Below, piece by piece: positions 5,389-37,926 of a stretch of 51,686 nucleotides of DNA. The notes beneath the pieces are model-generated. The model was not told where the DNA came from, did no database searches, and was given only the letters and a program-made list of their open reading frames with translations. A program made the position numbers and the translations under genes. The stretch is taken from positions 1 through 51,686 of the forward strand of contig NZ_VDFV01000022.1 in NCBI RefSeq assembly GCF_006152145.1, in the 5' to 3' direction. Source of the DNA: Rubellimicrobium roseum. Lineage in GTDB: Bacteria > Pseudomonadota > Alphaproteobacteria > Rhodobacterales > Rhodobacteraceae. Position 1 is the stretch's first letter. Every line of letters begins with the position of its first letter.

Positions 5389-5392
5389 CCCC

Positions 5393-7213
5393 ATGTGCGG
5401 AATCATCGGAATCCTGGGCTCGCACGAGGTCGCCCCCCTTCTCGTCGAATCCCTCAAGCGCCTGGAGTATCGCGGCTACGACAGCGCGGGGATCGCCACG
5501 GTCAACGAGGGCCGGCTGGACCGCCGGCGCGCCGTGGGCAAGCTCGTGAACCTGTCGGACGTGCTGGTGCATGATCCCCTGCCCGGCCACGCCGGCATCG
5601 GCCACACCCGTTGGGCCACCCACGGCGTCCCGGCCGAGCGCAACGCCCACCCGCACCGGGCGGGCCGCGTCTCGGTTGTCCACAACGGCATCATCGAGAA
5701 CTTCCGCGAGCTGCGCGCCTGGCTGGCCGACCGCGGCCTCGTGCAGGAGTCCGACACCGACACCGAGACGGTGGCTCTTCTGGCCAACCTGTTCCTGTCC
5801 GAGGGCGCCAGCCCCGAGGAAGCGGTGGAGATGACGCTCCAGCGCCTTCACGGCGCCTATGCGCTCCTGTTCATCTTCGAGGGCGAGGAAGACCTGCTCA
5901 TCGCCGCCCGCAAGGGATCTCCCCTCGCCATCGGCCATGGCGACGGCGAGATGTTCGTGGGCTCCGACGCCATCGCGCTCGCGCCCTTCACCTCCCGGAT
6001 CACCTATCTCGAGGAAGGCGACTGGGCCGTCGTGACCCGCGCCGGCGCCCGGATCAAGGACGGCGCCGGCCGGCTCGCCAACCGTCCGGCCAAGACGATC
6101 CAGATCGAGTCGGCTCAGGTCGACAAGGCCGGACACCGCCATTTCATGGCCAAGGAGATCGCCGAGCAGCCCTCTCGCCTCACCACCGCGCTGAACCATT
6201 ATCTCGCCGAGGACGGCACGTTCCGCCTGCCCGGCCAGGGCCTTGACTTCCGCGCCATGGACCGGCTCACGATGGTCGCCTGCGGGACCGCTTCCTACGC
6301 CTGCCTTGTGGCCAAGTATTGGTTCGAGCAGATCGCGGGCCTGCCTGTCGACGTCGACGTGGCCTCGGAGTTCCGCTACCGAGAGCCGCCCATCCCGCCC
6401 CGCACGGCCGCGCTGTTCGTGAGCCAGTCGGGCGAGACCGCCGACACCCTGGCCGCGCTCCGCTATTGCCGCGACAAGGCGGCCACCATCCTGTCGGTCG
6501 TGAACGTGGCCGAAAGCTCGATCGCCCGGGAATCCGACCTCGCCCTGCCCATCCTCGCCGGGCCTGAGATCGGCGTGGCCTCCACCAAGGCCTTCTCCTG
6601 CCAGCTCGTCGTGCTGGCGCTCCTGGCGCTGGAGGCCGGACGGCAGCGTGGTCACATGGATGAAGCGACCCATGCCGAACGCCTCGCTGCCCTGCGCTCG
6701 ATCCCTGGCCTCGTGAACCATGCACTGGGGCTTTCGGAGGCCTCGGACCGAGTGGCGGCCAAGCTTGCCGAAGCTCGTGACATCCTGTTCCTGGGGCGCG
6801 GCCGCATGTACCCGCTCGCGTTGGAGGGTGCGCTGAAGCTCAAGGAGATCAGCTACATACATGCCGAAGCTTACGCGTCAGGCGAGCTTAAGCACGGCCC
6901 CATCGCGCTGGTGGACAAGTCCGTTCCGGTCATCGTCATGGCTCCGCATGACGAACTCTTCGACAAGACCGTCTCTAACATGCAGGAGGTCATGGCCCGA
7001 GGCGGTCAGGTACTCCTCGTGACGGACCGCGAGGGCGCGAACGTGGCGGCCCATGGCGTGTGGGAGATGCTGGTGCTGCCGGATGTGGCCGCGCTCTGGG
7101 CGCCGATCCTCTATGCCGTTCCGGCTCAGCTTCTCGCCTACCATACGGCCATCGCCAAGGGCACCGATGTCGACCAGCCGCGCAACCTCGCCAAATCGGT
7201 TACGGTGGAGTGA
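5393..7213 (+). CDS. glmS: Glutamine--fructose-6-phosphate aminotransferase (isomerising)
   Basis: A 606-residue enzyme making glucosamine-6-phosphate from fructose-6-phosphate and glutamine. It starts MCGIIGILG, so Cys2 is the glutaminase nucleophile after Met removal. The glutaminase domain shows THGVPAERNAHPH and HNGIIENF. Two SIS domains follow (CGTASYA, SQSGETADT, and a second around RGRMYPLALEGALKLKEISY), and the tail is LAKSVTVE, the usual end. It lies 4 bases after glmU and 1 base before the next gene. From about 6640 the codons become noticeably richer in A/T third positions than the first two thirds of the gene, which hints at a recombination boundary inside the gene. Confidence 0.97.
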   Translation: MCGIIGILGSHEVAPLLVESLKRLEYRGYDSAGIATVNEGRLDRRRAVGKLVNLSDVLVHDPLPGHAGIGHTRWATHGVPAERNAHPHRAGRVSVVHNGIIENFRELRAWLADRGLVQESDTDTETVALLANLFLSEGASPEEAVEMTLQRLHGAYALLFIFEGEEDLLIAARKGSPLAIGHGDGEMFVGSDAIALAPFTSRITYLEEGDWAVVTRAGARIKDGAGRLANRPAKTIQIESAQVDKAGHRHFMAKEIAEQPSRLTTALNHYLAEDGTFRLPGQGLDFRAMDRLTMVACGTASYACLVAKYWFEQIAGLPVDVDVASEFRYREPPIPPRTAALFVSQSGETADTLAALRYCRDKAATILSVVNVAESSIARESDLALPILAGPEIGVASTKAFSCQLVVLALLALEAGRQRGHMDEATHAERLAALRSIPGLVNHALGLSEASDRVAAKLAEARDILFLGRGRMYPLALEGALKLKEISYIHAEAYASGELKHGPIALVDKSVPVIVMAPHDELFDKTVSNMQEVMARGGQVLLVTDREGANVAAHGVWEMLVLPDVAALWAPILYAVPAQLLAYHTAIAKGTDVDQPRNLAKSVTVE

Positions 7214-24165: not shown

Positions 24166-24972
24166 TCAGGCGTCCCGTTGCGCGATCCAGTCGTGGTCGG
24201 GGTCGTTCTGGAAGCGCCACTTGCGGATCGGGCCGGCCATGACGTTGAGGTAGTACATCTCGTAGCCGTAGGGCGCGCCGCAGGGGTGGTGGCCCTTGGG
24301 GACGAGCGTCACGTCGTGGTTCTTGACCGCCATGGTCTCGTCGAGCGAGCCGTCCTCGGTGTAGACCCGCTGGATGCCGAAGCCCTGCGCGGGGTTCAGG
24401 CGCATGTAGTAGGTTTCTTCGAGGTAGGTCATGCGGGGGAAGTCGTCCTCGTCATGACGGTGGCTCGGGTAGCTGGACCAGTGGCCGGCGGGGGTGAAGA
24501 CCTCGGTCACGAGGAGCGAGTCGGCCACGTCGCGCCCTTCCATGGCGATGTTGTTGACGTGGCGGGTGTTGGTGCCCTTGCCGCGTGGCGTGAGGGTGAT
24601 CCCCTCGGGGCCGAGGCGCTGGGCCTCGTGGCCACCCTGCCCCGGCGCGGTGCAGACGGCGAGCGTGCAGTCGGTGGTGGCCGTGGCCTCCCAGTCCGTG
24701 CCGTTGGGGAGGTAAAGGCAGTGGGGCGGCGTCTTCTCGAAGACGTCCATGCGGTCGCCCATCTCGCCCCAGTCCTTCCCTGCGCCCTGGATGCGGGCCT
24801 TGCCCTCGACCAGGACAAGGATGACCTCGGTGTCGCCCGTGGCTTCCCGGGCCGTCTCGCCGGCCTTGAGGCGGTAAAGGCCGAAGCCCACGTAGCCCCA
24901 GCCGGCGGAGGCGGGGGTGATGTCGTGGACCTTGCCGGTCTCCCCGGCGGGGTGGATCAGGAGGCGGCTCAT
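24166..24972 (-). CDS. iolB: 5-deoxy-glucuronate isomerase
   Basis: A 268-residue double-cupin isomerase converting 5-deoxy-D-glucuronate to 2-deoxy-5-keto-D-gluconate in inositol breakdown. Family-specific stretches are the cupin metal segment YPSHRHDEDDFPRMTYLEET (His and Glu ligands) and the late PKGHHPCGAPYGYEMYYLN segment with a second His pair. The ATG at 24972 has GAGGAA 5 bases upstream and overlaps the stop of the small membrane protein gene by 4 bases. It is the last gene of the minus-strand inositol block. Confidence 0.95.
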   Translation of the reverse strand: MSRLLIHPAGETGKVHDITPASAGWGYVGFGLYRLKAGETAREATGDTEVILVLVEGKARIQGAGKDWGEMGDRMDVFEKTPPHCLYLPNGTDWEATATTDCTLAVCTAPGQGGHEAQRLGPEGITLTPRGKGTNTRHVNNIAMEGRDVADSLLVTEVFTPAGHWSSYPSHRHDEDDFPRMTYLEETYYMRLNPAQGFGIQRVYTEDGSLDETMAVKNHDVTLVPKGHHPCGAPYGYEMYYLNVMAGPIRKWRFQNDPDHDWIAQRDA

Positions 24973-25172
24973 TTTTCCTCGGGCGGACGGGGGTGGAAGT
25001 TGAAGAAGAAGTGCCAGCCGCAATAGAGCCCGATCGAGGCGAAAAGCGCCGACCACATGATGCTGCCCGTGGCGGCCTCGACCATCGCCCAGAGCACGCA
25101 GGCCACGACGATGGCGACGCGCCGCCAGAGCGGGATGAAAAAGGGGTGGTTGAGGTCGAAGAGGCGGTCCAT
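24969..25172 (-). CDS. Small two-helix membrane protein in the iol operon
   Basis: A 67-residue protein with a short charged N-terminus (MDRLFDLNHPFFIPLWRR), a hydrophobic helix at about residues 18-35, a second at about 38-56, and a polar PRPPEEK tail. It overlaps iolB by 4 bases and follows iolD after 54 bases, so it is co-translated with catabolic enzymes. I do not recognise the family. Possible roles are a membrane partner for the importer or an accessory transporter subunit, but nothing in the sequence decides. Good codon usage and coupling argue it is real. Confidence 0.75.
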   Translation of the reverse strand: MDRLFDLNHPFFIPLWRRVAIVVACVLWAMVEAATGSIMWSALFASIGLYCGWHFFFNFHPRPPEEK

Positions 25173-25226: not shown

Positions 25227-27056
25227 TCAGGTTCGGATCTGCTCCTTCAGGCGGTCTTCGTAGGCCTGGCGGCTGGCCCGCACCTGCGCGCGGGCCGAGA
25301 CCTCGGGCACGGCCACGTCCCACCAGTGGCCACCATGCGGCGTGGAGGGATAGGGGTCGGTGTCGATGACGACGACGTAGGGGCCGCGGGCCTCGTGACG
25401 CTTCGCGAGCGCGGCTTCCAGTTCGGCGATGGAGCCCGCCTTGATGGCGGTGGCGCCCATGCTGGCCGCGTGGGCCACGAAGTCGATGGCGCTGTTGGAG
25501 CCGCCGTGGGCGTCCTTGAGGAGGTTGTTAAACTCCGCGCCCCCGGTCGACATCTGGAGGCGGTTGATGCAGCCGTAGCCCCGGTTGTCGGTGATGACGA
25601 CGGTGAAGGGCACCTGCATCATCGCGGCGGTGGCCATCTCGCTGTTCATCATCATGTAGCTGCCGTCGCCCACCATGCAGACCACGTCGCGGTCGGGCTC
25701 GGCCATCTTGATGCCGAGCGCGCCCGCCACCTCGTAACCCATGGTCGAGAAGCCGTACTCCATGTGGTAGGACATGGGGCGCGTGGCCTTCCAGAGCTTG
25801 TGCAGCTCGCCCGGCATGGTGCCGGCGGCGCACATGACCACCGTGTCGGGGCCCGCCGCGCGCTGGACGGCGCCGATCACCTGCTGGTCGGTGGGCAGGC
25901 CCGCGTTGCCCTCGGGCGCGGCGGTGAGCGGGTCGACGTCGGCGAACCAGTCGGCCTTGAGGCTGGCGGGGATCGGCCTGACCTTGTGGCCGTCAAGCTG
26001 TGCGAGGAGCGCCGCAAGGCCGGCCTCGGCGTCGCAGCACAAGGGCTCGGCCCCGTGCTTCACCGCGTCGTAGGCCTGGACGTTGAGGCTGACGAGCCGG
26101 CGGTTCGGGCGGGAGAAGAGCGACCAGGAGCCGGTGGTGAAGTCCTGGAAGCGCGTGCCGACGCCGAGGACGAGGTCGGCCTGCGCCGCAACGGCGTTGG
26201 CGCTCGCGGTGCCGGTGACGCCCACGGCGCCGAGGTTCAAGGGATGGTCCCAGGGGAGCGAGGACTTGCCGGCCTGCGTCTCGATCACGGGAATGCCGGT
26301 GGCTTCCGCGAAGCGGCGCAGCGCCTCGGTCGCCTGCCCGTAGTGGACGCCGCCGCCGGCGATGATCACAGGGGCCTCCGCGCCCTTGATGAGGTCCACG
26401 ACGGCCTGCACTTCGACCGGGTCGGGCTGCGGGCGGCGGCGGCGCCAAGTGCGGGGTTCGAAGAACGAGGCCGGGTAGTCGTAGGCCTCGGCCTGCACGT
26501 CCTGGCAGAAAGCGAGCGTCGCCGGGCCGCAGTCGGCGGGGTCGGTGAGCGTCCGCATGGCGCGGGGCAGCGCGGTCAGGAGCTGCTCGGGCCGCTCGAT
26601 CCGGTCGTAGTAGCGCGAGACGGGGCGGAAGCAGTCGTTGACCGAGACGGTGCCGTCGTTGAAGTCCTCAAGCTGCTGGAGCACCGGGTCGGGGCCGCGG
26701 TTGGCGAAGACGTCGCCGGCGACGAACAGGACCGGCAGGCGGTTGACATGGGCGAGGCCCGCGGCCGTGACCATGTTGAGCGCGCCCGGCCCGATGGAGG
26801 AGGTCACCATCATCGCGTGCTGCCGGCCAAGCTGCTTGGCGTAGGCGATGGCGGCGTGGGCCATGCCCTGCTCGTTGTGGCCGCGGTAGGTCGGAAAGGT
26901 CTCGCGCGCCCCGTGCAGCGCCTCGCCGATCCCGGCGACGTTGCCGTGGCCGAAGATGGCCCAGCAGCCGGAGATGAAGGGGGTGCCATCCTCGGCGAGT
27001 TGGTTCTGGAGCCAGCGCACCATGGCCTGCGCGGCGGTGAGGCGGATCGTGGTCAT
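25227..27056 (-). CDS. iolD: 3D-(3,5/4)-trihydroxycyclohexane-1,2-dione acylhydrolase
   Basis: A 609-residue thiamine-diphosphate enzyme that hydrolyses the diketone ring to 5-deoxy-glucuronate. The N-terminal pyrimidine domain has the cofactor Glu in the segment YRGHNEQGMAHAAIAYAKQ. The central domain carries GVTGTASANAVAAQADLVLG. The C-terminal domain has the ThDP/Mg motif MVGDGSYMMMNSEM ending near DNRGYGC. Length and motifs fit IolD rather than acetolactate synthase. The ATG at 27056 overlaps the iolC stop by 4 bases. Confidence 0.96.
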   Translation of the reverse strand: MTTIRLTAAQAMVRWLQNQLAEDGTPFISGCWAIFGHGNVAGIGEALHGARETFPTYRGHNEQGMAHAAIAYAKQLGRQHAMMVTSSIGPGALNMVTAAGLAHVNRLPVLFVAGDVFANRGPDPVLQQLEDFNDGTVSVNDCFRPVSRYYDRIERPEQLLTALPRAMRTLTDPADCGPATLAFCQDVQAEAYDYPASFFEPRTWRRRRPQPDPVEVQAVVDLIKGAEAPVIIAGGGVHYGQATEALRRFAEATGIPVIETQAGKSSLPWDHPLNLGAVGVTGTASANAVAAQADLVLGVGTRFQDFTTGSWSLFSRPNRRLVSLNVQAYDAVKHGAEPLCCDAEAGLAALLAQLDGHKVRPIPASLKADWFADVDPLTAAPEGNAGLPTDQQVIGAVQRAAGPDTVVMCAAGTMPGELHKLWKATRPMSYHMEYGFSTMGYEVAGALGIKMAEPDRDVVCMVGDGSYMMMNSEMATAAMMQVPFTVVITDNRGYGCINRLQMSTGGAEFNNLLKDAHGGSNSAIDFVAHAASMGATAIKAGSIAELEAALAKRHEARGPYVVVIDTDPYPSTPHGGHWWDVAVPEVSARAQVRASRQAYEDRLKEQIRT

Positions 27057-28975
27057 GCGGCGTGTCCTTGGGCAGCGGGGGCGCCCGCGCGGGCGCGGTC
27101 CCAGGTCTCGGCGAGGGCGCGGAATCGGGCGGCCATCTGCTCGATGGCTTCGGCGTCGGTCATCCGGCCCGTGAGCCAGGCACGGGCGGCGTCGGCGAAG
27201 ATCGTGCGGCCGACGGCGAAGCCCTTCACGAGAGGCTGGGCGGCGGCGAGCGCGAAGCTCGCGGCCAGCTCCTCGGCGAGGGCGTCGAGGCCCAGGACCA
27301 CGACGCCGCGCACGTGCGGGTCATGGGCGGTGATGGCGCCGCAGGCCTTGGCCCAAGCCGCTTGCGTCTTGAAGGGTTCGAGCTTCCACCAGTCGGGGTA
27401 GAGGCCGAGGGCGTAAATGCGGTCGATGATGCGGGCGGTGGTGTCGTCGTCCACCAGGCCCACCTTGGAGGGGATCACCTCCAGGAGGACCTCCAGTCGG
27501 TTGCGGCGGGCAGCCGCGAAGAGGCGGATCAGCGTCGCCTCCTGCTCCGCCCACATCGCCGCGTCGTCGTCGGGGTGGCAGAAGCAGAGGACCTTGACGA
27601 CATGCTCCAGCGGCCATTCCGAGAGGCCGCCGAAGTCGGGGCCGATCTCGGGCTCCAGCGTCAGAGGGCGGGAGCCGGGCCATTCGACCGGGCGGCCGAT
27701 CCAGAGGCCGGTGCCGGCCGCCTTGTAGAGGGCGTCGCGGCCGAGGCGGCCGTCGCAGAGGATGCCGTAGCCGTGCTGGCCGTTCGCGACGGCCTGGGCG
27801 GCCTCCAGGCAGAGGGTCTTGAAGGCTCCGATCCTCTCGGGCGTCGCACCCTCCATCTCCTCCAATTGCTTGCGGTGGTCGAAGGCGAAGACGCGCATCC
27901 GGTCCCAGGTGCCATGGCGGTTCGTGGACCAGTGGATCTGTTCAAGTTGGGCGTCCTTGCGGAGCGCGGGCGTCTGGACGCCGCGGGCCAGGAAGAACTC
28001 CATCTCCTCCAGCGACGGATAGGCGGGCGTGCAGCCGTGGCGCGAGACGGCGAAGGCGCCGCAGGCGTTGGCGTATTTGAGCGCCGTGGGCCAGTCCTCG
28101 CCGTCGAGCCAGCCCTTGAGCAGGCCGGACATGAAGCCGTCGCCCGCGCCCAGCACGTTGAACACCTCGATGGGGAAACCGGGGCCGGTCTCGCCGTCGT
28201 CGAGGCTGTCGGGGATCGCGCCGGTGAAGGCCACCGCGCCCTTGGCCCCGCGCTTGCAGATCAGGTGAGCCTTGGAGACGGCGCGGACGGCGCGGAGCGC
28301 CTCGACGGTGTCGGTCGAGCCGCCCGCGATGTGGAACTCCTCCTCGGTGCCCACGATCAGGTCGAAGAGGTGCAGGTGCGTCTGAAGCTTCGCCGTGACG
28401 GCCGCGCTCTCGATGAAGCGCGACTCCCCGGCCCCGTGGCCGGCGAGGCCCCAGAGGTTCGGGCGGTAGTCGATGTCGAGCGCGGTCTGCGCGCCGCTCT
28501 CGCGGGCGAGGCGCAGCGCCTTGAGGACGGCGGCCTCGGTGCGGGAGTGCGAGAGGTGCGTGCCGGTGGCGACCACCGCGCGGGCCTCGCTGATGAAGGA
28601 CGGGTCGATGTCGTCCTCGCAGAGCGCCATGTCGGCGCAGTCGGCGCGGTAGAAGATGAGCGGGAAGCTCTCCTGGTCGCGGATGCCCAGGATCACGAGA
28701 GCGGTCAGGCGCTCGGGGTCGGTGACGACGCCGCGGACGTCCACGCCCTCCTTGGCCAGCTCCTCGCGGATGAAGCGGCCCATGTGCTCGTCGCCGACCC
28801 TCGTGATGAGGGCCGACTTGAGGCCGAGCCGCGCGGTGCCCGCCGCCATGTTGGTAGGGCTGCCGCCGATGTACTTCTGGAAGGACCCCATGTCCTCGAG
28901 CCGCCCGCCCACCTGGGCGCCGTAAAGGTCCACCGAGGACCGGCCGATGGTGATGACGTCCAGCGTCTTGGTCAT
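27053..28975 (-). CDS. iolC: 5-dehydro-2-deoxygluconokinase fused to a DUF2090 domain
   Basis: A 640-residue two-domain protein. Residues about 1-325 are a PfkB-family sugar kinase: opening VITIGRSSVDLYG, the GGSPTNMAAGTARLG sugar-binding loop, and the ATP/anion-hole motif NVLGAGDGFMSGLLKGWLDG. It would phosphorylate 2-deoxy-5-keto-gluconate. From about 340 a TIM-barrel-like DUF2090 domain begins (RMRVFAFDHRKQLEEM) and continues to the end. This fusion is common in proteobacterial inositol loci. No separate iolJ aldolase is in the window, so the second domain may perform the following aldol cleavage (inference). iolG lies 13 bases upstream. Confidence 0.94.
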   Translation of the reverse strand: MTKTLDVITIGRSSVDLYGAQVGGRLEDMGSFQKYIGGSPTNMAAGTARLGLKSALITRVGDEHMGRFIREELAKEGVDVRGVVTDPERLTALVILGIRDQESFPLIFYRADCADMALCEDDIDPSFISEARAVVATGTHLSHSRTEAAVLKALRLARESGAQTALDIDYRPNLWGLAGHGAGESRFIESAAVTAKLQTHLHLFDLIVGTEEEFHIAGGSTDTVEALRAVRAVSKAHLICKRGAKGAVAFTGAIPDSLDDGETGPGFPIEVFNVLGAGDGFMSGLLKGWLDGEDWPTALKYANACGAFAVSRHGCTPAYPSLEEMEFFLARGVQTPALRKDAQLEQIHWSTNRHGTWDRMRVFAFDHRKQLEEMEGATPERIGAFKTLCLEAAQAVANGQHGYGILCDGRLGRDALYKAAGTGLWIGRPVEWPGSRPLTLEPEIGPDFGGLSEWPLEHVVKVLCFCHPDDDAAMWAEQEATLIRLFAAARRNRLEVLLEVIPSKVGLVDDDTTARIIDRIYALGLYPDWWKLEPFKTQAAWAKACGAITAHDPHVRGVVVLGLDALAEELAASFALAAAQPLVKGFAVGRTIFADAARAWLTGRMTDAEAIEQMAARFRALAETWDRARAGAPAAQGHAA

Positions 28976-28988
28976 GGGGTTCCCTCCC

Positions 28989-29993
28989 TTAGCCGAGGAT
29001 CTCGGACACCTTCACGGCGCGGCCCTGCTGCGCCGAGAGAAGGGCGGCATCGGCGAGCGCCAGGGCCTTGAGCCCGTCCTCGCCGGTGGTGGGGGTCTGG
29101 CCCCCGCCGTTGACCGCCTTGATGAAGCCCGCGATCTCGTTGGCATAGGCCGCGATGTACCGCGTCATGAAGAAGTTGAGAAGCGGCGGGCGCGTGAAGC
29201 CGTTCGCCGTCGCGATCTCGATGTTGGCCTCGCGCATGTTCTCGGCCGCGACCGAGCCGTTGGAGCCCAGCACCTCGATGCGCTGGTCGTAGCCGTAGGT
29301 GGCGCGGCGCGAGTTGGTGATGATCGCCTGCCTGCCGCTCGCGGTGCGCAGGATGACGTTAACCGAGTCGTAGTCGCCGAGCTCGCCGATGGCGGGGTCC
29401 GTCAGGACGGAAGCCGAGGCCATCACCGTCTCGGGCTCCTCGCCCAGGAGCCAGCGCGCCATGTCGAAGTCGTGGATGGTCATGTCGCGGAAGATGCCGC
29501 CCGAGCGCTTGATGTAGTCGGCCGGGGGGGCGCCGGGGTCGCGCGAGGAGATGGTGACCATCTCCACGTCCCCGACGGTGCCCGCGTCGATGGCGGCCTT
29601 GACGGCCATGAAGTCGGGGTCGAAGCGGCGGTTGAAGCCCACCATCAGCGTGGCGCCGGTCTCCTCGACGACCTTGAGGCAGTCCTGGACGCGGGCGACC
29701 GAGAGGTCCACCGGCTTCTCGCAGAAGACCGCCTTGCCGGCGCGGGCGAAGCGCTCGATCAGGTCGGCGTGGGTGTCGGTGGGCGTGCAGATCACCACCG
29801 CGTCTATGTCCGAGGAGGCCTCGATCTCCTCGATCGTGCGGATGGCGCAGCCGTATTCGTTGGCGATGGCCTCGGCGGCGGCGGGGAAGGCGTCGGCGAC
29901 GGCCACCAGCTCGGCGTTGGCGTCGGAGCGGATCGCGCGCGCGTGCACCTTGCCGATGCGGCCCGCGCCGAGAAGCCCGAATTTCACAGTCAT
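28989..29993 (-). CDS. iolG: Inositol 2-dehydrogenase (Gfo/Idh/MocA family)
   Basis: A 334-residue NAD-dependent dehydrogenase oxidising myo-inositol to 2-keto-myo-inositol. The Rossmann motif GLLGAGRIGKVHARAI is at residues 6-21, the catalytic Lys is in CEKPVDLS near residue 96, and the Asp/His pair appears in GGIFRDMTIHDFDMARWLLG. It is the first catabolic enzyme gene after the importer. MocA, the rhizopine dehydrogenase, is in the same family, so activity on a scyllo-inosamine or methyl-inositol is possible given the neighbouring MocDE-like genes. Confidence 0.92.
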   Translation of the reverse strand: MTVKFGLLGAGRIGKVHARAIRSDANAELVAVADAFPAAAEAIANEYGCAIRTIEEIEASSDIDAVVICTPTDTHADLIERFARAGKAVFCEKPVDLSVARVQDCLKVVEETGATLMVGFNRRFDPDFMAVKAAIDAGTVGDVEMVTISSRDPGAPPADYIKRSGGIFRDMTIHDFDMARWLLGEEPETVMASASVLTDPAIGELGDYDSVNVILRTASGRQAIITNSRRATYGYDQRIEVLGSNGSVAAENMREANIEIATANGFTRPPLLNFFMTRYIAAYANEIAGFIKAVNGGGQTPTTGEDGLKALALADAALLSAQQGRAVKVSEILG

Positions 29994-30125: not shown

Positions 30126-30896
30126 TCACATCATCGCCGCGGCGGTGTTCTGCGTCTTCACGCCGGTGATGTAGGCCACGATGTCGGAGCCGTCGGTTTC
30201 CTCCTTGCGGAGGTTGGCGACGATGTGCCCGCGCCGGAACACCACGATCCGGTCGGCGAGGTCGAAGACCTGGCGCAGGTTGTGGCTGATGAGGATCAGC
30301 GAGATGCCCTGGGCCTTGAGGGTCCGGATGATGTTCTCGACCTGCGCGGTCTCCTGCACGCCCAGCGCCGCCGTCGGCTCGTCCATGATGATGAGCTTGG
30401 AGGCGAAGGTGGCCGAGCGTGCGATCGCGACGCCCTGACGCTGGCCGCCCGACATCCGGCGGATCGGGAAGTCGAGCCGCGGGATGCGCACGCCGGTCCG
30501 CTTGAGGCCTTCCTCGGTCGCCTTGCGCATCGCGCGCTTGTCGAGGATCGAGAAGGGCCCGAGGTTCACGAGGGTCTTCTCGCGCCCCAGGAACAGGTTG
30601 GCGGGCACGTCCAGGTCGTCGGCGAGCGCGAGGTTCTGGAACACGCATTCCATGCCGGCTTCACGGGCGTCGAGGGGGCCCTTGAAGGCCACTTCCCTGC
30701 CGTCGAAGAAGATCCGGCCGCCGGTGCGCTGCTCCACGCCGGTGATCTGACGCACGAAGGTGGACTTGCCGGCGCCGTTGTCGCCCACGATGGCGACGTG
30801 CTCGCCTTCCCTGACCTCGAAGTCCGCGTCCACGAGGGCATGGATGCCCCCGTAGTGCTTGGTGAGGCCTTCCGTCTTGAGAACGGTCTTTGCCAT
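30126..30896 (-). CDS. iatA: Inositol ABC transporter, ATP-binding protein
   Basis: A 256-residue single-cassette sugar ABC ATPase. Walker A is GDNGAGKST, the signature is MSGGQRQGVAIARS, Walker B is LIIMDEPTAALG and the switch His is in LISHNLRQV. It is paired with the permease 12 bases upstream and the binding protein beyond it. The set resembles Caulobacter ibpA-iatA-iatP. It is similar in design to frcA in this window, so the two importers are paralogous. The final residues (VKTQNTAAAMM) lie outside the core. Confidence 0.9.
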   Translation of the reverse strand: MAKTVLKTEGLTKHYGGIHALVDADFEVREGEHVAIVGDNGAGKSTFVRQITGVEQRTGGRIFFDGREVAFKGPLDAREAGMECVFQNLALADDLDVPANLFLGREKTLVNLGPFSILDKRAMRKATEEGLKRTGVRIPRLDFPIRRMSGGQRQGVAIARSATFASKLIIMDEPTAALGVQETAQVENIIRTLKAQGISLILISHNLRQVFDLADRIVVFRRGHIVANLRKEETDGSDIVAYITGVKTQNTAAAMM

Positions 30897-30908: not shown

Positions 30909-31955
30909 TCAGTCCACGATGCCGCGGCGCTTCTGCCGGTAGATGTCGGCCACGACGGCGGCCACGATGATCGCGCCCTTGATCATCTCCTGGTAGTAGG
31001 CGTCGACGCGAAGGAAGGTGAAGCCGGAGATGATGACCCCGAAGATCAGCATCCCGATGAAGGTCCCGATGATGGAGCCCCGGCCGCCGATCAGCGACAC
31101 GCCGCCGATCACCGCCATGGCGATGGCGTCGAGCTCGTACATCTGGCCCATGCCGGCCTGCGCGGTCAGCGCGCGCGAGGCGGCCACCAGGCCCGCGACG
31201 GCCGAGAGCATCCCGGCGATCGAGTAGACCAGGACGAGGTGCTTCTCGACGCTGATGCCGGCCATGCGCGCGGCGGCGGGGTTCGAGCCGATGGCGTAGG
31301 TGTGCCGGCCGTAGAGCGTGTGGCTCAGGATCAGGTGGAACAGGATGGCCACGAGCGCGAAGATGACCACGGGCATCATGCCCGAGCCCAGCGCGGTGAA
31401 GGACTCGGTCGGGTTCGACACGGCCTGGCCTTCGGTCCACCACTTGGCCACGCCGCGCGCGGTCACCATCATGCCGAGCGTGGCGATGAAGGGCGGGATC
31501 TTGGTGTAGGCGATGACCGCGCCGTTGACGAAGCCCGCGAGCAGGCCCATCGCCAGGCCCACCAGGATCGGCACCATCACGGGCAGGTCGACCCAGCCTT
31601 GGGCCCAGAACACGGCGTCGGTGAACTCCTGGCCGTTGCGCTCGCCGGCCTGCGCGAAGCTCATGGCGATGATGGCCGTGGCGCCGACGATGGAGCCCGA
31701 GCTGAGGTCGATGCCGCCGGTGATGATGACCTGCGTCACGCCCACGGCGATGATGCCGATGACCGACACCTGGAGAATCATGATCGACAGGCGCGACCAG
31801 TTCATGAGGAAGCTGTCGCCCCGGATGAACCATCCCGCGAGTTCGAAGATGAGCGCGAGGGCCACGAGGCCGAAGAGGGCGTTGAGCTCCATGGGCCAGT
31901 TCCGGCGTTTCGCCGGCCCGGCGGCCCTCCCGGTGTTGATTGCGAGTTCGGCCAT
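30909..31955 (-). CDS. iatP: Inositol ABC transporter, permease
   Basis: A 348-residue inner-membrane permease of the RbsC fold with about ten hydrophobic segments, starting at ALFGLVALALIFELAGWFI. Family marks are VTQVIITGGIDLSSGSIVGA and the ATPase-contact loop GGVSLIGGRGSIIGTFIGML. The ATG at 31955 has AGGAGA 7 bases upstream; the longer open frame to 32294 is GC-rich leader without coding character. It precedes the ATPase gene by 12 bases. The substrate is inferred from the iol neighbourhood. Confidence 0.92.
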   Translation of the reverse strand: MAELAINTGRAAGPAKRRNWPMELNALFGLVALALIFELAGWFIRGDSFLMNWSRLSIMILQVSVIGIIAVGVTQVIITGGIDLSSGSIVGATAIIAMSFAQAGERNGQEFTDAVFWAQGWVDLPVMVPILVGLAMGLLAGFVNGAVIAYTKIPPFIATLGMMVTARGVAKWWTEGQAVSNPTESFTALGSGMMPVVIFALVAILFHLILSHTLYGRHTYAIGSNPAAARMAGISVEKHLVLVYSIAGMLSAVAGLVAASRALTAQAGMGQMYELDAIAMAVIGGVSLIGGRGSIIGTFIGMLIFGVIISGFTFLRVDAYYQEMIKGAIIVAAVVADIYRQKRRGIVD

Positions 31956-32402: not shown

Positions 32403-33368
32403 TCAGTTCGCGGTCAGGTAGTCCTGGATGTTGGCGGGCGTGACGAGCTCGAAGGGGATGTAGACCTTCTGCTCGACGGCCTGGCCTTCGGCCAGCGCCA
32501 GCGCCGCGTCGAGCGCGCCCCGGCCCTGGCCGGCGGCGTTCTGGAACACGGTCACGTCGAGGTCGCCCGCCTGCATGGCCGCCAGCGCGTCCTGCGTGGC
32601 GTCGATGCCGGCGACGATCACGTCATCCATGGAGACGCCCGAGGACTTGAGCGCCTGGATCGCGCCGATGGCCATCTCGTCGTTGTTCGAGATCACGGCG
32701 TCGAACTTGATGCCGGCCGTGATCCAGTTGGTCATGAGGTCGGCGCCCTGCTGGCGCTGCCAGTTGCCGGTCTGCTCCTCGACCACCGTCATGAACGAGC
32801 AGTCGGGCGTGGCGATGACGTCGTGGACGTCCTTGGTGCGTACCACGGCGGCCTGGTTGCTGAGCTCGCCCTGCATGACGATGATGTTCGCAGCGGTCGC
32901 GCCCTGCTCCTTGAGGAGGCGGCAGACTTCCTTGGTCTGAAGCGTGCCCGAGTCGACCTCGTTGGAGGCGACGAAGGCCTGGTTGTCGGGAAGGGCGTCG
33001 ACGTTGATCGGCTCGCGGTTCACGTAGACCAGCGGGATGCCCGCGGCGGCGGCGGCGTCCGTGATGGCCTGGGTGGCCGAGGTGTCCACGGCGTTGACGA
33101 TGATGGCGTCCACGCCCGCGGCGATGAAGTTCTCGACTTGGTTGAGCTGCTTGCCGACGTCGTTGGTGGCATCCTCGACCGCCAGTTCGAGGCCTTCCTT
33201 CGTTCCGGCATATTCGGTCATGCCGTTGCGCAGGACGGTCAGGAAGTTGTCGTCGAAGGCCGCCATCGAGACGCCGACGGTCTTGGAGCCGCCCGCCGAC
33301 GACATGACGGCGATGCCGCCCGCGGCGGCGGCGATGACGGCCGCGCCAAGAAGAAGCTTCGTGTTCAA
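32403..33368 (-). CDS. ibpA: Inositol ABC transporter, periplasmic binding protein
   Basis: A 321-residue type 1 periplasmic binding protein. I place the start at the TTG 33368 because GGGAGGG lies 6 bases upstream. This gives a basic, then hydrophobic signal sequence (NTKLLLGAAVIAAAAGGIAV) with likely cleavage near SSAGG. No ATG fits. The mature domain begins KTVGVSMAAFDDNFLTVLRN, with ligand-site elements such as NAVDTSATQAITDAAAAAG, VNREPI and SNNDEMAIGAIQALK, as in ribose/inositol-binding proteins. It is the first importer gene downstream of the isomerase. Inositol is inferred from the operon. Confidence 0.88.
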   Translation of the reverse strand: MNTKLLLGAAVIAAAAGGIAVMSSAGGSKTVGVSMAAFDDNFLTVLRNGMTEYAGTKEGLELAVEDATNDVGKQLNQVENFIAAGVDAIIVNAVDTSATQAITDAAAAAGIPLVYVNREPINVDALPDNQAFVASNEVDSGTLQTKEVCRLLKEQGATAANIIVMQGELSNQAAVVRTKDVHDVIATPDCSFMTVVEEQTGNWQRQQGADLMTNWITAGIKFDAVISNNDEMAIGAIQALKSSGVSMDDVIVAGIDATQDALAAMQAGDLDVTVFQNAAGQGRGALDAALALAEGQAVEQKVYIPFELVTPANIQDYLTAN

Positions 33369-33461
33369 GGTAATCCCTCCCAATCAAGCGGCGTCCGGTC
33401 CGCCGCGCCCTGTGCCGGAAGGCCCCCTGTCCCTAGGAGGCCCGATCCCTGGCGGCCCTGG

Positions 33462-34280
33462 TCATGCCGCCTTCGCCGCGAGCTGCGCGGCGATGAAGTC
33501 GATGGACTTGCGGAGGCCGCCGACGGGGTCGGCCAGCCCGTGAACCTCGGGCGCGAAGCATTCGAAGCTGATCGCGCCCCGGTAGCCCGCCGCCTCGAGC
33601 GCGGCGATCTGGGCCACGTTGCCCAGGCGGTCAGCGCCATCCACGAGCACGCGGTGCTGGTCGCCCATCTCGCTCACGGCGAGCGCCGGGTCGACGACGC
33701 CGGAGATGTGGACGATGCCCGTGTGCGCGGGGAACAGCGGCCCGCCATGGGCGAGGTGGTGGTGGAAGGTGTCGTGCACGACCTTAAAGCGGCCGACGGC
33801 ATCCAGAGCCTCGATGGCCTCGACGGCCTCGGCCTTGTGGCGCAGCGCGCAGATCTCGAAGCCCAGGGGCTCCACGAGGCCTGTGAGGCCGTGGTCCTCC
33901 AGCATGGGCTTGAGCTCGCGCAGGGCGACGCGGAGGTTGGCCTGCCGCTCGCCGTTGCCCATGCCGCCGTTGTCGTTGCGCGGGATGAGGGCCACGGCCT
34001 CGGCGCCGCAGGCCTGCGCGGTCTTCATCAGCGCCAGCGCCTCGTCGCGCTTGGCGTCGGACCAGTCGTTGAAGCGCTTGACCTCGGCCAGCGCGAGGAT
34101 GCGCAGGCCCTTCTCTCGCGCCAACTCGCCGGCTGCCTCGGGGGCCAGGCCGTCGAACAGGGGCTGCGGCAGGTCGTTGCGGACCTCGACGCCGACGCAT
34201 CCCAACGCCTGCGCGGTGTCCAGGAGGCCGGCATAGGTCATGCGGGCCACGGTCATGTGGTTCAATGCAAAGGGCAGCAT
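33462..34280 (-). CDS. IolI/MocC-like TIM-barrel isomerase
   Basis: A 272-residue xylose-isomerase-like TIM barrel. It resembles Bacillus IolI (2-keto-myo-inositol isomerase): metal/active-site strands are LTGLVEPLGFEIC (Glu), FKVVHDTFHHHLA (Asp and His), IVHISGVVDP (His) and the final GAISFECFAPEVHG (Glu). Rhizobial MocC of rhizopine catabolism belongs to the same superfamily. The ATG at 34280 has GGAGGAAG upstream; a longer frame lacks one. It is shorter than, and unlike, a typical IolE dehydratase. Since iolE is absent from the window, a dehydratase role cannot be excluded. Confidence 0.8.
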   Translation of the reverse strand: MLPFALNHMTVARMTYAGLLDTAQALGCVGVEVRNDLPQPLFDGLAPEAAGELAREKGLRILALAEVKRFNDWSDAKRDEALALMKTAQACGAEAVALIPRNDNGGMGNGERQANLRVALRELKPMLEDHGLTGLVEPLGFEICALRHKAEAVEAIEALDAVGRFKVVHDTFHHHLAHGGPLFPAHTGIVHISGVVDPALAVSEMGDQHRVLVDGADRLGNVAQIAALEAAGYRGAISFECFAPEVHGLADPVGGLRKSIDFIAAQLAAKAA

Positions 34281-34443
34281 TTCAGGGTCTTCCTCCCGCG
34301 TGGCCGGCCGCGTTGATCGCCGCTCGCACTCCCGCGTCTGACGAGGTGCTGCTTGCGGCCGTGAGGGCCCGTCCGTCAATCCGAGGCCTTAACGAATTCT
34401 TCATCTTTGACGCCTAGAACCTCAGACCCATGACGGGTTTTCG
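34281..34443 (-). promoter_or_regulatory. Probable promoter region of the inositol operon
   Basis: This 163-base gap separates the regulator stop from the isomerase gene. The regulator-proximal half (34385-34430) is markedly A/T-rich for this genome (includes TTAACGAATTCTTCATCTTT on the plus strand), which suggests promoter or operator DNA. No convincing -10/-35 pair or palindrome could be fixed by eye. Alternatively the operon reads through from the regulator. Confidence 0.4.
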
Positions 34444-35475
34444 TCAGACCGACTCGGGCAGAATCAGTTCCGGTCGGAGGAAGTGCTGCCCCGCCACCTC
34501 CGAGGGTCCGCTCCGCACCGCTTCGGCCATGAGACGCACGAGATCGTCGCAAAGCTGAGAAAGCGGGGTGGCGATCACCATGGTGGCGAACCCGTCCACC
34601 AATGCACCACGGGATTGGGGCGTCAGTTCGTTCACAACTAGGCAAACCTCGTGAGGTTTGCGGATTTCCCGCAGCGCAGCGATGGCGCCTTCCATCCCGC
34701 CGCCGGCGCAGTAGATGCCCCGCAGCTCCTTCTGACGCGACAGGAGATCGAGCGTGGCCTCGTAGGTGAGCTGGCGCGTCTCGAGGTTCACCAGCGTGTC
34801 GAGCACCTGGAACTGGGGGGCGAACTCACGGAACCAGCTACGGAATCCGGCCTCGCGCAGCTCGTGGCCGTGCCAGCGGTAGCCGCCCACGAAGACGGCG
34901 ACCTTGCCGGGCCGGTGCGCCGCGAGGCCGATCATGGACGCAGCGATGCGCCCGACCTTGAGGTTGTTGAGACCCAGGTAGCTTTGCCGCACGCCGGGCG
35001 CAAAGTCGTTGAGGAGCGCGAAACAGGGAATCCCGGCCGACTTGAGGGATGTCACCGCGTCGGTCACGTCGGGATGGGTGACTGCGCTGGCCGCGACCGC
35101 GTCGGCCCGGCCACGCATCCCCAGCATCAGAGTGGCGAAATCCGAGGGCGCCTGGGAGGCGGCGAATTCGAGCACGAGTCGCACCCGGACGCCCGTGGCC
35201 CGGCGCGCGGCGGCCTCCAGCTCGGCGGCGAAAGCCTGATAGAAGGCCTGCTTCTCCTTGTGGAGCACGACGCCCATGCGCAGCACGGGGATCTCGGCCT
35301 GGAGCCGTTGCGCGATGAGCGGCGTGGCGTGGTAGCCGATGCGCCGCGCCGCCTCGTAGACGCGGCGCGCCGTTTCCTCGCGCACGTTCTCGCGGCCGTT
35401 GAGCACGCGGTCCACGGTGGCCTGGCTCACGCCCGCGGCCTTGGCGACGTCCTGGATGGTCGGGCGGCGTGCCAT
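34444..35475 (-). CDS. LacI-family regulator of the inositol block
   Basis: A 343-residue LacI/GalR regulator. The N-terminal HTH is TIQDVAKAAGVSQATVDRVL, followed by the hinge helix segment ETARRVYEAARRIGYHATPL. Residues 65-343 are a sugar-binding core like periplasmic binding proteins (YLGLNNLKVGRIAASMIGLA, GGYRWHGHELREAGF, GIYCAGGGMEGAIAAL). It lies directly upstream of the inositol genes on the same strand and is divergent from the desaturase cassette, so it can plausibly control both. The effector is presumably inositol or an early intermediate. Confidence 0.9.
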   Translation of the reverse strand: MARRPTIQDVAKAAGVSQATVDRVLNGRENVREETARRVYEAARRIGYHATPLIAQRLQAEIPVLRMGVVLHKEKQAFYQAFAAELEAAARRATGVRVRLVLEFAASQAPSDFATLMLGMRGRADAVAASAVTHPDVTDAVTSLKSAGIPCFALLNDFAPGVRQSYLGLNNLKVGRIAASMIGLAAHRPGKVAVFVGGYRWHGHELREAGFRSWFREFAPQFQVLDTLVNLETRQLTYEATLDLLSRQKELRGIYCAGGGMEGAIAALREIRKPHEVCLVVNELTPQSRGALVDGFATMVIATPLSQLCDDLVRLMAEAVRSGPSEVAGQHFLRPELILPESV

Positions 35476-35629
35476 GGTTTCGACACCTTTGATGGTTTCG
35501 CCTCAATGTTCCCTCCCATCTCTGATGGGCGGTGACGGAATGTCCAGCAGGGTTAGTGGGAGAGTTTGTCGCCTTCCGGTAAGGACCGGGGCCACATCCT
35601 GACATCGCGACACGCTCGGGGAGGAGCAT
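35476..35629. promoter_or_regulatory. Divergent control region, lacI-type gene / desaturase cassette
   Basis: This 154-base region serves both directions. It contains a perfect inverted repeat CCCATC-TCT-GATGGG (35515-35529). Next to the regulator start is a direct repeat GGTTTCG (35477-35483 and 35495-35501, period 18) around ACACCTTTGAT. Either could bind the LacI-type protein. GGGGAGGAGC before 35630 is the desaturase ribosome site. Confidence 0.5.
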
Positions 35630-36724
35630 ATGGGGACGAGAGACTACAGCCTGCTGGGCCCTGACGGCCGCCGCGCCGTGGAGACGGGGCTGGCCGCCGC
35701 CGAGTGGTACCACACGGAGGTGCCGCGGAAGGTCATGAAGGAGCTGATGCAGCGCAAGGACGGCCCGGCCATCCGGGACACCATCCTATGGCTGGGGCTC
35801 ATGGCCGTCTTCGCGGGGATCGCCATCGCTCTGATGCTGACGGGGCATCCCTGGCTGTCGGTGCCCTTCTGGCTGTCCTACGGCGTGCTCTACGGCTCGG
35901 CCTCGGATTCGCGCTGGCATGAATCGTCGCACGGCACGGCCTTCAAGACGCCGTGGATGAACGACGTCGTTTACCAGATCGCCTGCTTCATGATCGTGCG
36001 GAACCCGCACACCTGGCGCTGGAGCCACGCGCGCCACCACACCGACACCTACATCGTCGGCCGCGACCCCGAGATCGCGATCATGCGGCCGCCAGCGTTC
36101 TTCAAGCTGGTGCTGAACTTCTTCGGCATCCTCGACGGTTGGAGCGGCTGGACCCGGATGCTGCTCAACGCGAGCGGAAAGCTGCACCCGGAGGAGCAGA
36201 CCTTCGTGCCGGAAAGCGAATGGCCCAAGGTCGTGCGCGTCGCCCGCCTCTGGACGCTGATCTACGCCGCCACGATCACGGTCGCGGTTGCCACCGGCTC
36301 GATCATCCCGCTGCTGCTGATCGGCGGCCCGCGCCTTTACGGCGCCTGGCACCATATCATGACGGGGCTGCTGCAGCATGGCGGGCTGGCCGACAACGTC
36401 ATCGACCACCGGCTGAATTCGCGCACCGTCCACATGAATCCGGTGTCGCGCTTCATCTACTGGAACATGAACTACCACGTGGAGCACCACATGTTCCCCA
36501 TGGTGCCCTACCACGCGCTGCCGAGGCTGCACGAGCTGATCAAGCACGACCTGCCCGCGCCCAACGCCTCGATCGCCGAAGGCTTCCGCGAGATGTGGCC
36601 CGCGCTGAAAAGTCAGCTCCGGCACGAGGACTACTTCCTGCGGCGCGAATTGCCCGCCACGGCAAAACCCTACCGCGAGGACTTCCACGTCGAGGCGCTG
36701 GGTGGGGCCGTGGCGGCCGAATAG
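35630..36724 (+). CDS. MocD-like membrane fatty-acid-desaturase-family oxygenase
   Basis: A 364-residue integral membrane di-iron protein. The three His boxes are HESSH (97-101), HARHH (133-137) and HVEHH (283-287), with an extra HH at 241-242. Membrane segments are visible at about 51-90 and 205-235. Such proteins desaturate lipids, but the family also includes hydroxylases/demethylases such as MocD of rhizobial rhizopine (3-O-methyl-scyllo-inosamine) breakdown. The next gene encodes a Rieske ferredoxin that could feed it electrons, and the inositol operon lies on the other side. This context favours a small oxygenated substrate over a lipid, by inference. No ferredoxin reductase is in the window. 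Confidence 0.85.
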   Translation: MGTRDYSLLGPDGRRAVETGLAAAEWYHTEVPRKVMKELMQRKDGPAIRDTILWLGLMAVFAGIAIALMLTGHPWLSVPFWLSYGVLYGSASDSRWHESSHGTAFKTPWMNDVVYQIACFMIVRNPHTWRWSHARHHTDTYIVGRDPEIAIMRPPAFFKLVLNFFGILDGWSGWTRMLLNASGKLHPEEQTFVPESEWPKVVRVARLWTLIYAATITVAVATGSIIPLLLIGGPRLYGAWHHIMTGLLQHGGLADNVIDHRLNSRTVHMNPVSRFIYWNMNYHVEHHMFPMVPYHALPRLHELIKHDLPAPNASIAEGFREMWPALKSQLRHEDYFLRRELPATAKPYREDFHVEALGGAVAAE

Positions 36725-36805
36725 GCGGACCATCAGGGACGACCGACAACCGGCCGGGCCGTAACGCCTAGCCGAACAACAAGCTTACGAGGGAAGGAAC
36801 CACCA

Positions 36806-37120
36806 ATGCCCCAATGGGTCGATGCCTGCGCGGCGGACGAGATCGACGAAGAGGACGTGATGCGCTGGGATCATGGCGGGCGCACCTACGCCATCTACCA
36901 CAGCCCGGACGGCGAGTTCTTCTGCACCGACGGGATCTGCACGCACGAGAACGTTCACCTCGCGGGAGGCCTGGTGATGGACTACGTGATCGAGTGCCCC
37001 AAGCATAACGGCCAGTTCGACTACCGGACGGGTCAGGCCAAGCGCGCGCCGGTCTGCGTGAACCTGAAGACCTACCCGGCCAGGTCCGAAGGCGGGCGCG
37101 TGCTCGTGCAGGTGGAGTGA
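36806..37120 (+). CDS. MocE-like Rieske [2Fe-2S] ferredoxin
   Basis: A 104-residue soluble Rieske ferredoxin. Cluster ligands are C45 and H47 in GICTHENVHL and C64 and H67 in ECPKHNGQF, the CxH-(16)-CxxH pattern of oxygenase ferredoxins. It resembles MocE, the partner of MocD in rhizopine catabolism. The ATG at 36806 has AAGGAA upstream. The stop overlaps the start of the PanB-like gene (TGATG junction), so these two are coupled; the desaturase gene is 81 bases upstream. Confidence 0.92.
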   Translation: MPQWVDACAADEIDEEDVMRWDHGGRTYAIYHSPDGEFFCTDGICTHENVHLAGGLVMDYVIECPKHNGQFDYRTGQAKRAPVCVNLKTYPARSEGGRVLVQVE

Positions 37121-37926
37121 TGGGACCATCGCAACGCTGGACCGTCGCGGACCTGCGCGCCGCGCGCGGCAGGCACCGGTTCGCCATGCTCCGCGTCGAG
37201 ACGCTGGAGGAGGCCGAGGCCGCCGAGAAGGCAGGGGTCGAGATGCTCTCGGTGCCGCCGGCGATGATCCTGGACCGCCGCTTTCGCGAGGTCGCGCCCA
37301 ACGCCTTCGCCTGTCCGGGCGACAACTTCTACGAGATCGGGGACACGTCCGATTTCCTGAGATGGGCCTTCCCGCTTTACAAGCACGGCGCGGACGCGGT
37401 CTACTGCTCGGGGTCGCTCAAGACCGTGCGGGCGCTCGCGGAGCATGGCATCCCGGTCTGCGGGCACGTGGGCCTGATCCCGTCGAAGCGCACCTGGACC
37501 GGCGGCTTCAAGGCCGTGGGCAAGACGCTCGACAGCGCCAAGCTCGTCTGGGACATGTGCAGGGCGCAGGAGGAGGCCGGGGCCTTCGCCGTCGAGATCG
37601 AGGTCGTGCCGCAGGAGATCACGGCTGCCATCGCCGAGCGGACCTCGCTGTTCCTGATCTCGATGGGTGGTGGCGCGCAGGGGCATGCGCAGTACCTCTT
37701 CACCGATGACGTGCTGGGGCAGAATGCGGGCAAGGTGCCGCGCCACGCTAAGGTCTATGCCGACTTCCGCAGCGAATACGCCGCGCTGCAGGCGAAGCGG
37801 ATCGCCGCGATGCGGGCCTTCGCCGACGACGTGCATGGCGGCGCCTATCCCTCGTCCGATTACGTGGTGAGCGCCAGGGCCGAGGTCGTGGCCGAGTTCC
37901 GCGACTGGCTGGTCGCGCAAGGCTGA
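37120..37926 (+). CDS. PanB-like (ketopantoate hydroxymethyltransferase family) protein, atypical active site
   Basis: A 268-residue protein of the PEP mutase/PanB TIM-barrel superfamily. The PanB-like core is clear: PVCGHVGLIPS (His116), FAVEIEVVPQEIT (Glu161, matching the E. coli catalytic Glu181), ISMGGGAQGHAQYLFTDDVLG and VPRHAKVYADF. However, where E. coli PanB has Mg ligands Asp45 (VGDSLG) and Glu114 (KIEGG), this protein has SVPPA (44-48) and YCSGS (95-99). It is therefore unlikely to be the pantothenate enzyme. Coupled to the Rieske gene, it may handle a one-carbon unit or cleave/condense an inositol-derived keto acid. The ATG at 37120 follows a GGTGGAG site. Confidence 0.78.
   Translation: MGPSQRWTVADLRAARGRHRFAMLRVETLEEAEAAEKAGVEMLSVPPAMILDRRFREVAPNAFACPGDNFYEIGDTSDFLRWAFPLYKHGADAVYCSGSLKTVRALAEHGIPVCGHVGLIPSKRTWTGGFKAVGKTLDSAKLVWDMCRAQEEAGAFAVEIEVVPQEITAAIAERTSLFLISMGGGAQGHAQYLFTDDVLGQNAGKVPRHAKVYADFRSEYAALQAKRIAAMRAFADDVHGGAYPSSDYVVSARAEVVAEFRDWLVAQG

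Follow-up and report, generated by a model that had tools for sequence, protein, structure and literature searches.

What does a three-gene cassette for a membrane oxygenase, a Rieske ferredoxin and a relative of ketopantoate hydroxymethyltransferase (PanB) do when it faces a set of inositol genes across a shared control region? The question is raised by a 51,686-nucleotide stretch of Rubellimicrobium roseum (NZ_VDFV01000022.1, positions 1 to 51,686; contig C66 of a 4.85-Mb genome), the whole of which is called the window here. The answer favored here, with a rough probability of 0.55, is that the cassette's products together remove a methyl group by oxidation from an O-methylated cyclitol such as pinitol, ononitol or a similar compound, and that the PanB-like protein would pass the one-carbon (C1) unit to folate. 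We infer the substrate, as well as the transfer of C1 to tetrahydrofolate (THF) by the PanB-like protein, from gene context and sequence. A preliminary description of this DNA had reported the trio with its last two genes overlapping, and the open reading frames (ORFs) were recovered as reported, each with a match to its family (PF00487, TIGR02377 and PF02548) and with a 4-bp overlap between the second and the third:

35630..36724, + strand: MocD-like membrane di-iron oxygenase of the FA_desaturase family (PF00487, 121 bits; three His boxes; 70.5% identity to MocD of a rhizopine locus)
36806..37120, + strand: MocE-family Rieske [2Fe-2S] ferredoxin (TIGR02377, 175 bits, cut-off 136)
37117..37926, + strand: PanB-like protein, a non-canonical PanB (PF02548, 126 bits; below the panB equivalog cut-off; D84, K112 and E114 lost, H136 and E181 kept)

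Kinship of the cassette with rhizopine moc genes

The two redox proteins are close relatives of those acting in rhizopine catabolism, of which mocDEF form a part according to the text available from PMC6668481 and PMC10107442. The oxygenase was correctly described as a three-His-box membrane protein, since it matches FA_desaturase at 121 bits and carries the motifs HESSH, HARHH and HVEHH at residues 97, 133 and 283; the ferredoxin scores 175.2 bits against a MocE cut-off of 136.15 and contains the Rieske motif CTH...CPKH. They are 70.5% and 63% identical, respectively, to their counterparts in Rhizobium indicum, whose locus has the published moc layout (an iolE-like MocC, MocA, MocB, MocR and mocDEF). 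In a midpoint-rooted tree of 38 MocD rows, the window protein falls within a supported clade of 23 (99/95) together with the MocDs of rhizopine loci (L072, L133, L135 and L144) and with iol-linked MocDs, and the MocD of another contig of the same genome (C69) falls outside it. A profile search returned no relative of MocD with a solved structure at E ≤ 1.

The genes on the other side of the control region had been described as a LacI-type regulator heading an importer and an iolG/C/D/B block. This layout was confirmed, the regulator lying 154 bp away from the cassette and all four iol genes scoring above their NCBIfam cut-offs:

35476..35629, no strand: divergent control region of 154 bp between the LacI gene and the mocD-like gene (gap between ORFs)
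34444..35475, - strand: LacI-type regulator, kin of rhizobial regulators divergent from mocD (PF00356 and PF13407; 57% and 53% identity to LacI of Mesorhizobium huakuii and Rhizobium etli)
33462..34379, - strand: TIM-barrel sugar isomerase/epimerase-like protein, start uncertain, not MocC (PF01261; 52% identity to the R. etli TIM gene)
32403..33383, - strand: sugar-binding protein of the importer (PF13407, 173 bits)
30909..31952, - strand: importer permease (recognized by eye from its translation; start near 31950 estimated by eye, frame open to 32294)
30126..30896, - strand: importer ATPase (PF00005)
28989..29993, - strand: iolG, inositol 2-dehydrogenase (TIGR04380, 423 bits, cut-off 355)
27053..28975, - strand: iolC, a kinase fused to an aldolase-type domain (NF047869, 704 bits, cut-off 600)
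25227..27056, - strand: iolD (TIGR04377, 904 bits, cut-off 715)
24166..24975, - strand: iolB, start uncertain (TIGR04378, 343 bits, cut-off 205)

The iol block of the window contains no iolE, and the only gene of the genome above the iolE cut-off lies on contig C11. A gene matching HutF, 193 bp downstream of the trio, was considered as a fourth cassette member and set aside because HutF was matched in only one of the 37 related loci counted below.

The window departs from a rhizopine locus in several respects. No match to a ferredoxin reductase of the MocF type was found beside the trio, and the regulator of the cluster is of the LacI rather than the MocR type. Relatives of MocC and MocA had also been announced nearby; the iolG gene is indeed present, but as an iolG above its cut-off and with only 30% identity to MocA, so that it does not qualify as MocA. 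When the gene labelled 'IolI/MocC-like' (33462-34379) was compared by BLAST with MocC from an authentic moc locus, no match at E ≤ 1e-3 appeared, and a MocC identity was rejected; its identity to the TIM-barrel gene next to the mocD regulator of R. etli is 52%. The LacI regulator itself shows 57% and 53% identity to the two genes with which it was compared, those divergent from mocD in M. huakuii and R. etli. Since the regulator is of the LacI type and its surroundings showed no MocC-like gene, rhizopine, one of the compounds first proposed, is an unlikely substrate here.

Scanning genome contigs with the PanB-like protein led to 61 loci, of which the 55 close ones (L009-L063) were counted at set identity thresholds (at least 60% for iolG) and six distant ones were excluded; ORF calling in the GC-rich loci gives shadow frames. 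The nearest named relatives are other Rubellimicrobium (88% identity in the PanB-like protein). The trio is present in 51 of the 55, and its arrangement is conserved beyond chance. For 37 of the trio loci the upstream sequence extends over 9 kb or more. Of these, 36 have the LacI gene, always on the opposite strand, and 36 have the TIM gene; the binding protein and the ATPase are each encoded in 35, whereas iolG was found in 22 and iolC in seven. Because of these counts, the regulator, the TIM gene and the importer facing the trio are regarded as a fixed unit to which the iol genes are a frequent but inconstant addition. Conserved co-occurrence of the trio with inositol genes, which the preliminary description proposed to survey, was borne out in part (iolG in 22 of 37), and the contrary outcome named there, a trio found mostly without inositol genes, was not observed in the close relatives.

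Two observations weigh against the favored reading: 15 of the 37 loci have no iolG, iolC, iolD or iolB at the set thresholds (although one of these, L038, has an IolG of 51% identity), and the cassette copies of R. etli and R. johnstonii lie amid cobalamin and NAD (cob, nad) genes. The earlier proposal that the cassette demethylates a methyl-inositol and feeds the product to the iol genes is thus favored by the kinship of MocD and MocE (71% and 63%, clade support 99/95) and by the linkage to LacI and the importer, but the link with the iol genes themselves holds for only part of the relatives.

In the control regions, the 8-mer TGACGAAA is present in 34 of 50 LacI-mocD divergent regions (49 related loci and the window). 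The window region (35476-35629) has one-mismatch copies only, and the 8-mer does not occur in the divergent regions of C69, R. etli, M. huakuii and Peteryoungia; it was dropped as a shared LacI operator, and no operator claim is made for it.

The PanB-like protein and the proposed fate of the methyl carbon

The third protein belongs to PF02548 (126 bits) and reaches 94.6 bits against the panB equivalog model TIGR00222, whose cut-off is 207.55. The residues D45, D84, K112 and E114 of Escherichia coli PanB are those which we take to hold the metal (Mg) and the keto acid, and E181 is presumably the catalytic base. In all 96 aligned PanB-like proteins D84, K112 and E114 are missing and H136 and E181 are retained; position 45, in a gappy stretch of the alignment, is P in the window protein (P in 66 of the 96, D in three). 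The alignment also shows TWTGG, GKT and PRHAK as conserved segments. The 96 are what was left of 108 PanB-family frames after 12 short or stop-containing ones were dropped, including two canonical-type PanBs (L064 and L107) and three Acetobacterium frames, and they are not independent (the 108 frames form 48 clusters at 80% and 26 at 70% identity). Names and GO terms in public records would make the PanB-like protein an additional PanB that serves pantothenate synthesis, which is hardly credible, given the score below the panB cut-off, the lost residues and a canonical panB elsewhere in the genome. The genome has this canonical gene (contig C95, 296 bits) in addition to three PanB-like genes, and the window gene was accordingly rejected as the genome's own PanB. 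In public records (L070, L133, L144 and others) the name 3-methyl-2-oxobutanoate hydroxymethyltransferase is attached to the PanB-like gene, along with a GO term for pantothenate; this naming is probably a widespread misannotation.

PanB acts in folate C1 chemistry, and PF02548 proteins are C-C bond enzymes. A profile search against solved structures returned only PanB entries below E 1e-20, the next being IMP dehydrogenase at 0.012. This sole structural kinship would suit a folate-free role in which formaldehyde is added to a 2-oxo acid in an aldol reaction and so disposed of, as would the likely release of formaldehyde by the partner oxygenases. Such a role is nevertheless very unlikely, as the residues taken to hold Mg and the 2-oxo acid (D84, K112 and E114) are gone in 96 of 96 proteins, and the purU and folD neighbors described below act on a THF-bound C1 unit.

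The partners of the PanB-like proteins are not always MocD-like. Besides FA_desaturase oxygenases, they include PF04116 hydroxylases (L108, in the same genome as the window, and, by similarity, L046, L129 and L130) and PhyH oxygenases (L098 and L106). In a tree of PanB proteins (35 of 37 intended rows, L125 and L126 having been dropped) the partner label requires 10 changes against a shuffled mean of 15.3, and the PanB subclade to which the window protein belongs (100/95) also contains L046, which has a PF04116 partner and groups there with L012. As the PanB-like protein is kept while the oxygenase is exchanged, it should act on what the oxygenases share, that is, the released C1 unit. The Pfam families of 220 proteins encoded beside PanB-like genes include, among the matches listed, FA_desaturase (24), Peripla_BP_4 (18), Rieske (17), TIM barrel (12), LacI (10), the ferredoxin reductase type (seven), Formyl_trans_N (five, one of them, from L115, hand-picked) and PhyH (four). 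This set comprises 213 of 266 distinct mechanically listed ORFs plus seven hand-picked ones (L115, L116, L128 and L131); the other 53 were left out by eye as likely shadow frames or to limit length.

A link with folate is visible in the rhizopine loci themselves. Against the rhizopine MocR model (NF052281, cut-off 650), the MocR of Sinorhizobium meliloti RCAM1115 reaches 756 bits. MocR proteins sharing 86% identity or more with it are encoded in 14 plasmid records, and the next best match stands at 47%; the 14 records represent few lineages (eight S. meliloti/kummerowiae, five Rhizobium and one Phyllobacterium). In 14 of these 14 records a PanB-like gene (in two pieces in three of them) lies about 2.9 kb from MocR, which is the length of mocDEF, so the earlier view that a PanB-like member is foreign to the moc system does not hold. 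purU adjoins the PanB-like gene in all of them (in eight by tblastn, 45 bp further on, in five by annotation and in a single one by tblastn, whose MocR and PanB look broken). Plasmid pMHb of M. huakuii, with a LacI-type regulator, has the order mocD-mocE-ferredoxin reductase-PanB-like-purU-folD, in which PurU and FolD pass their models, and purU also adjoins the PanB-like gene in Sinorhizobium fredii NGR234 and its relatives and lies near it in the genome contigs L047 and L062. In the latter, the alpha subunit of a formate dehydrogenase (TIGR01591, 953 bits) belongs to a group divergent from MocE-PanB-purU, beyond a LysR-type gene; L063, read by eye, has a similar layout. In the Rhizobiaceae-like genome of L115, genes resembling ornithine cyclodeaminase and histidine ammonia-lyase (by eye) stand beside purU-PanB, upstream of the PanB-like gene at 4110-6649.

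An estimate in which purU played no part in the selection comes from 30 genomes of two surveys chosen solely for a PanB-like gene, which contain 41 such genes and nine PurU genes in eight genomes. For two of the nine PurU genes a PanB-like gene is no more than 3.5 kb away (at 93 bp in G395 and at 2.2 kb in G117), against an expectation of 0.021 (Poisson P 2e-4).

Several findings speak against a transfer of C1 from an oxygenase to folate. In the 30-genome set, 39 of the 41 PanB-like genes have no PurU within 3.5 kb, and the window's own genome yielded no PurU at E ≤ 1e-40; FolD and Fhs, which lie about 0.8 kb apart on its contig C59, could stand in for it. No recognized oxygenase lies near the PanB-like genes of L103, L109 and L111, and L062 and L063 carry MocE-PanB without MocD nearby. 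Relatives also occur in anaerobes (L065-L069), where an oxygen-dependent demethylation is impossible, and their presence in these oxygenase-free organisms implies that the chemistry of the family cannot depend on oxygen. In Sporosalibacterium and Acetobacterium (L065:9821-10723, L067 and L069) the PanB-like proteins are encoded beside SDR genes; the L065 protein has no PanB metal residues, and FolD-like and cyclohydrolase-like genes (by eye) lie about 2-4 kb from its gene.

The scarcity of purU beside most PanB-like loci would fit another role, in which MocD and MocE demethylate a methyl-cyclitol, general pathways clear the formaldehyde, and the PanB-like TIM barrel is a lyase or aldolase acting on a ring-opened or keto-inositol skeleton. 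The C-C bond chemistry of PF02548 and the retained H136 and E181, which would suit a retro-aldol reaction, point the same way. This role is judged unlikely, given that the family occurs in sugar as well as cyclitol contexts and with varied oxygenases, which makes a common skeleton improbable, and that its linkage to purU, folD and formate dehydrogenase points to C1.

A broader proposal, possible though somewhat short of an even chance, is that the PanB-like proteins form a widespread, misannotated family of folate-dependent acceptors of the C1 unit of oxidative demethylation that have lost the PanB metal site. They would serve as a general adaptor for MocD, PF04116 and PhyH oxygenases and as the unnamed fourth enzyme of rhizopine catabolism (mocD-E-F-PanB-purU), and the LacI regulators beside them, perhaps including FixV, the nifA2 activator of Mesorhizobium loti, would sense O-methyl-inositols such as pinitol.

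Proposed route and candidate substrates

Under the demethylation reading, the LacI-type regulator would sense the cyclitol or its product and control both sides of the divergent region, and the ABC importer would take up the methylated cyclitol. MocD would then hydroxylate the O-methyl group, with electrons arriving through MocE and a reductase encoded elsewhere, and the PanB-like protein would load the C1 unit (formaldehyde or a hydroxymethyl ether) onto THF to give methylene-THF. FolD, followed by PurU in rhizobia or Fhs in the window's genome, would take C1 to formate, and the freed inositol would enter the iol enzymes.

Further copies of the oxygenase and PanB-like genes stand in other surroundings. 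On contig C69 of the same genome (L008:8800-10919), a second MocD-PanB pair without MocE is divergent from another LacI gene and is flanked by two ribose-type importers with SDR, Gfo/Idh and RpiR genes. A third PanB-like gene, on contig C94 (L108:4886-7747), lies between a LacI-like gene and an oxygenase of the PF04116 fatty-acid-hydroxylase type. A 1.6-Mb alphaproteobacterial genome (G161; L097, L098 and L099) has six MocD-like and four PanB-like matches near a sugar importer, glycosidase family 4 and IlvD-like genes, and is perhaps a methyl-sugar specialist. Two 1.4-Mb genomes (L095:5815-10624 and L096) have a MocD-PanB pair with genes for a Rieske-type ring hydroxylase and a glutamine-synthetase-like protein in its vicinity.

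Enzymes related to FA_desaturase are often lipid enzymes. This general point, together with the sugar contexts of the C69 and G161 copies and the ring-hydroxylase gene near the L095/L096 pair, could indicate that MocD and MocE act on something else, such as an unmethylated sugar or cyclitol ring, a betaine-like amine or a lipid. Such a substrate appears distinctly unlikely for the window in view of the close kinship to rhizopine MocD and MocE, the iol linkage and the C1-folate neighbors. Nonetheless, the C69 pair, placed among sugar importers and without MocE, implies that the substrates are not cyclitols alone, which tells against the favored reading.

Published expression data bear on the same issue. 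In Rhizobium mesoamericanum, the root exudate of Mimosa is reported to induce mocDEF homologs 1.5-2.1-fold together with iol genes, and pinitol is the most concentrated component of this exudate (145 uM), in the text available from PMC5789663. The induction is at least as consistent with pinitol as with rhizopine. Pointing the other way, the authors themselves interpret it as rhizopine catabolism (PMC5789663), and a MocR biosensor tested with ononitol and pinitol was reported to be activated by rhizopines (PMC6668481, as far as its text was available); the mocD promoter is described as rhizopine-inducible in the available text of PMC10107442.

Comparison with known systems

The PanB-like protein shares PF02548 and the residues H136 and E181 with ketopantoate hydroxymethyltransferase, and differs from it by the loss of D84, K112 and E114 and by the existence of a separate canonical panB in the genome. 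If its proposed role is correct, a function would be given to a large family now labelled as a pantothenate enzyme.

In rhizobia, LacI-type FixV homologs are located beside or divergent from mocDEF, and their inducer was proposed to be 'an inositol derivative' (PMC3538637, available text). The window shares with these LacI (FixV-type)-TIM-mocDEF clusters the divergent LacI/mocD layout and the TIM-barrel neighbor, whereas it adds the importer and the iol genes and has no ferredoxin reductase. The words 'hydroxymethyltransferase' and 'panB' are absent from the main text of that paper, its figure 2 apart. Should the reading hold, FixV would gain a concrete ligand guess in place of a signal so far given in that text just as 'an inositol derivative', and Rhodobacteraceae would possess a methyl-cyclitol route so far known from rhizobia. 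Since plants contain methyl-inositols such as pinitol as major solutes, the route would bear on the feeding of microbes by plants.

Oxidative O-demethylation of a sugar with release of formaldehyde is also known from the marine breakdown of 6-O-methyl-D-galactose (PMC10033563), which relies on a cytochrome P450 instead of MocD; a PanB-like protein is not mentioned in the opening of its abstract. A precedent for the fate of the carbon is the purU-mabO-folD operon of nicotine catabolism on pAO1, where, in the available text of PMC6214936 and PMC3891541, the C1 unit of demethylation is passed to THF, then to FolD and then to PurU. MabO oxidizes an N-methyl group and itself forms methylene-THF, whereas the window would use a separate PanB-like protein for this step.

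The most closely related system is the rhizopine mocCABRDEF cluster of Sinorhizobium and Rhizobium. It resembles the window in MocD and MocE (71% and 63%), in the inositol pathway lying downstream and in the PanB-like gene that follows mocDEF in 14 of 14 moc records; the window differs in its LacI-type regulator in place of MocR and in having neither a MocC-like gene nor a linked ferredoxin reductase. Where the available text of the sources names moc genes, neither the PanB-like gene nor purU appears. In the portions of the literature covered by the search, no paper links a PanB-like protein to mocDEF, and figure S1 of PMC10107442, figure 2 of PMC3538637 and Bahar et al. (1998) may show such genes. 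The transfer of carbon to folate by the PanB-like protein is probably a step so far unnamed in the known pathway of rhizopine breakdown, and, if true, it would explain the fate of the methyl carbon in the breakdown of both rhizopine and methyl-inositols.

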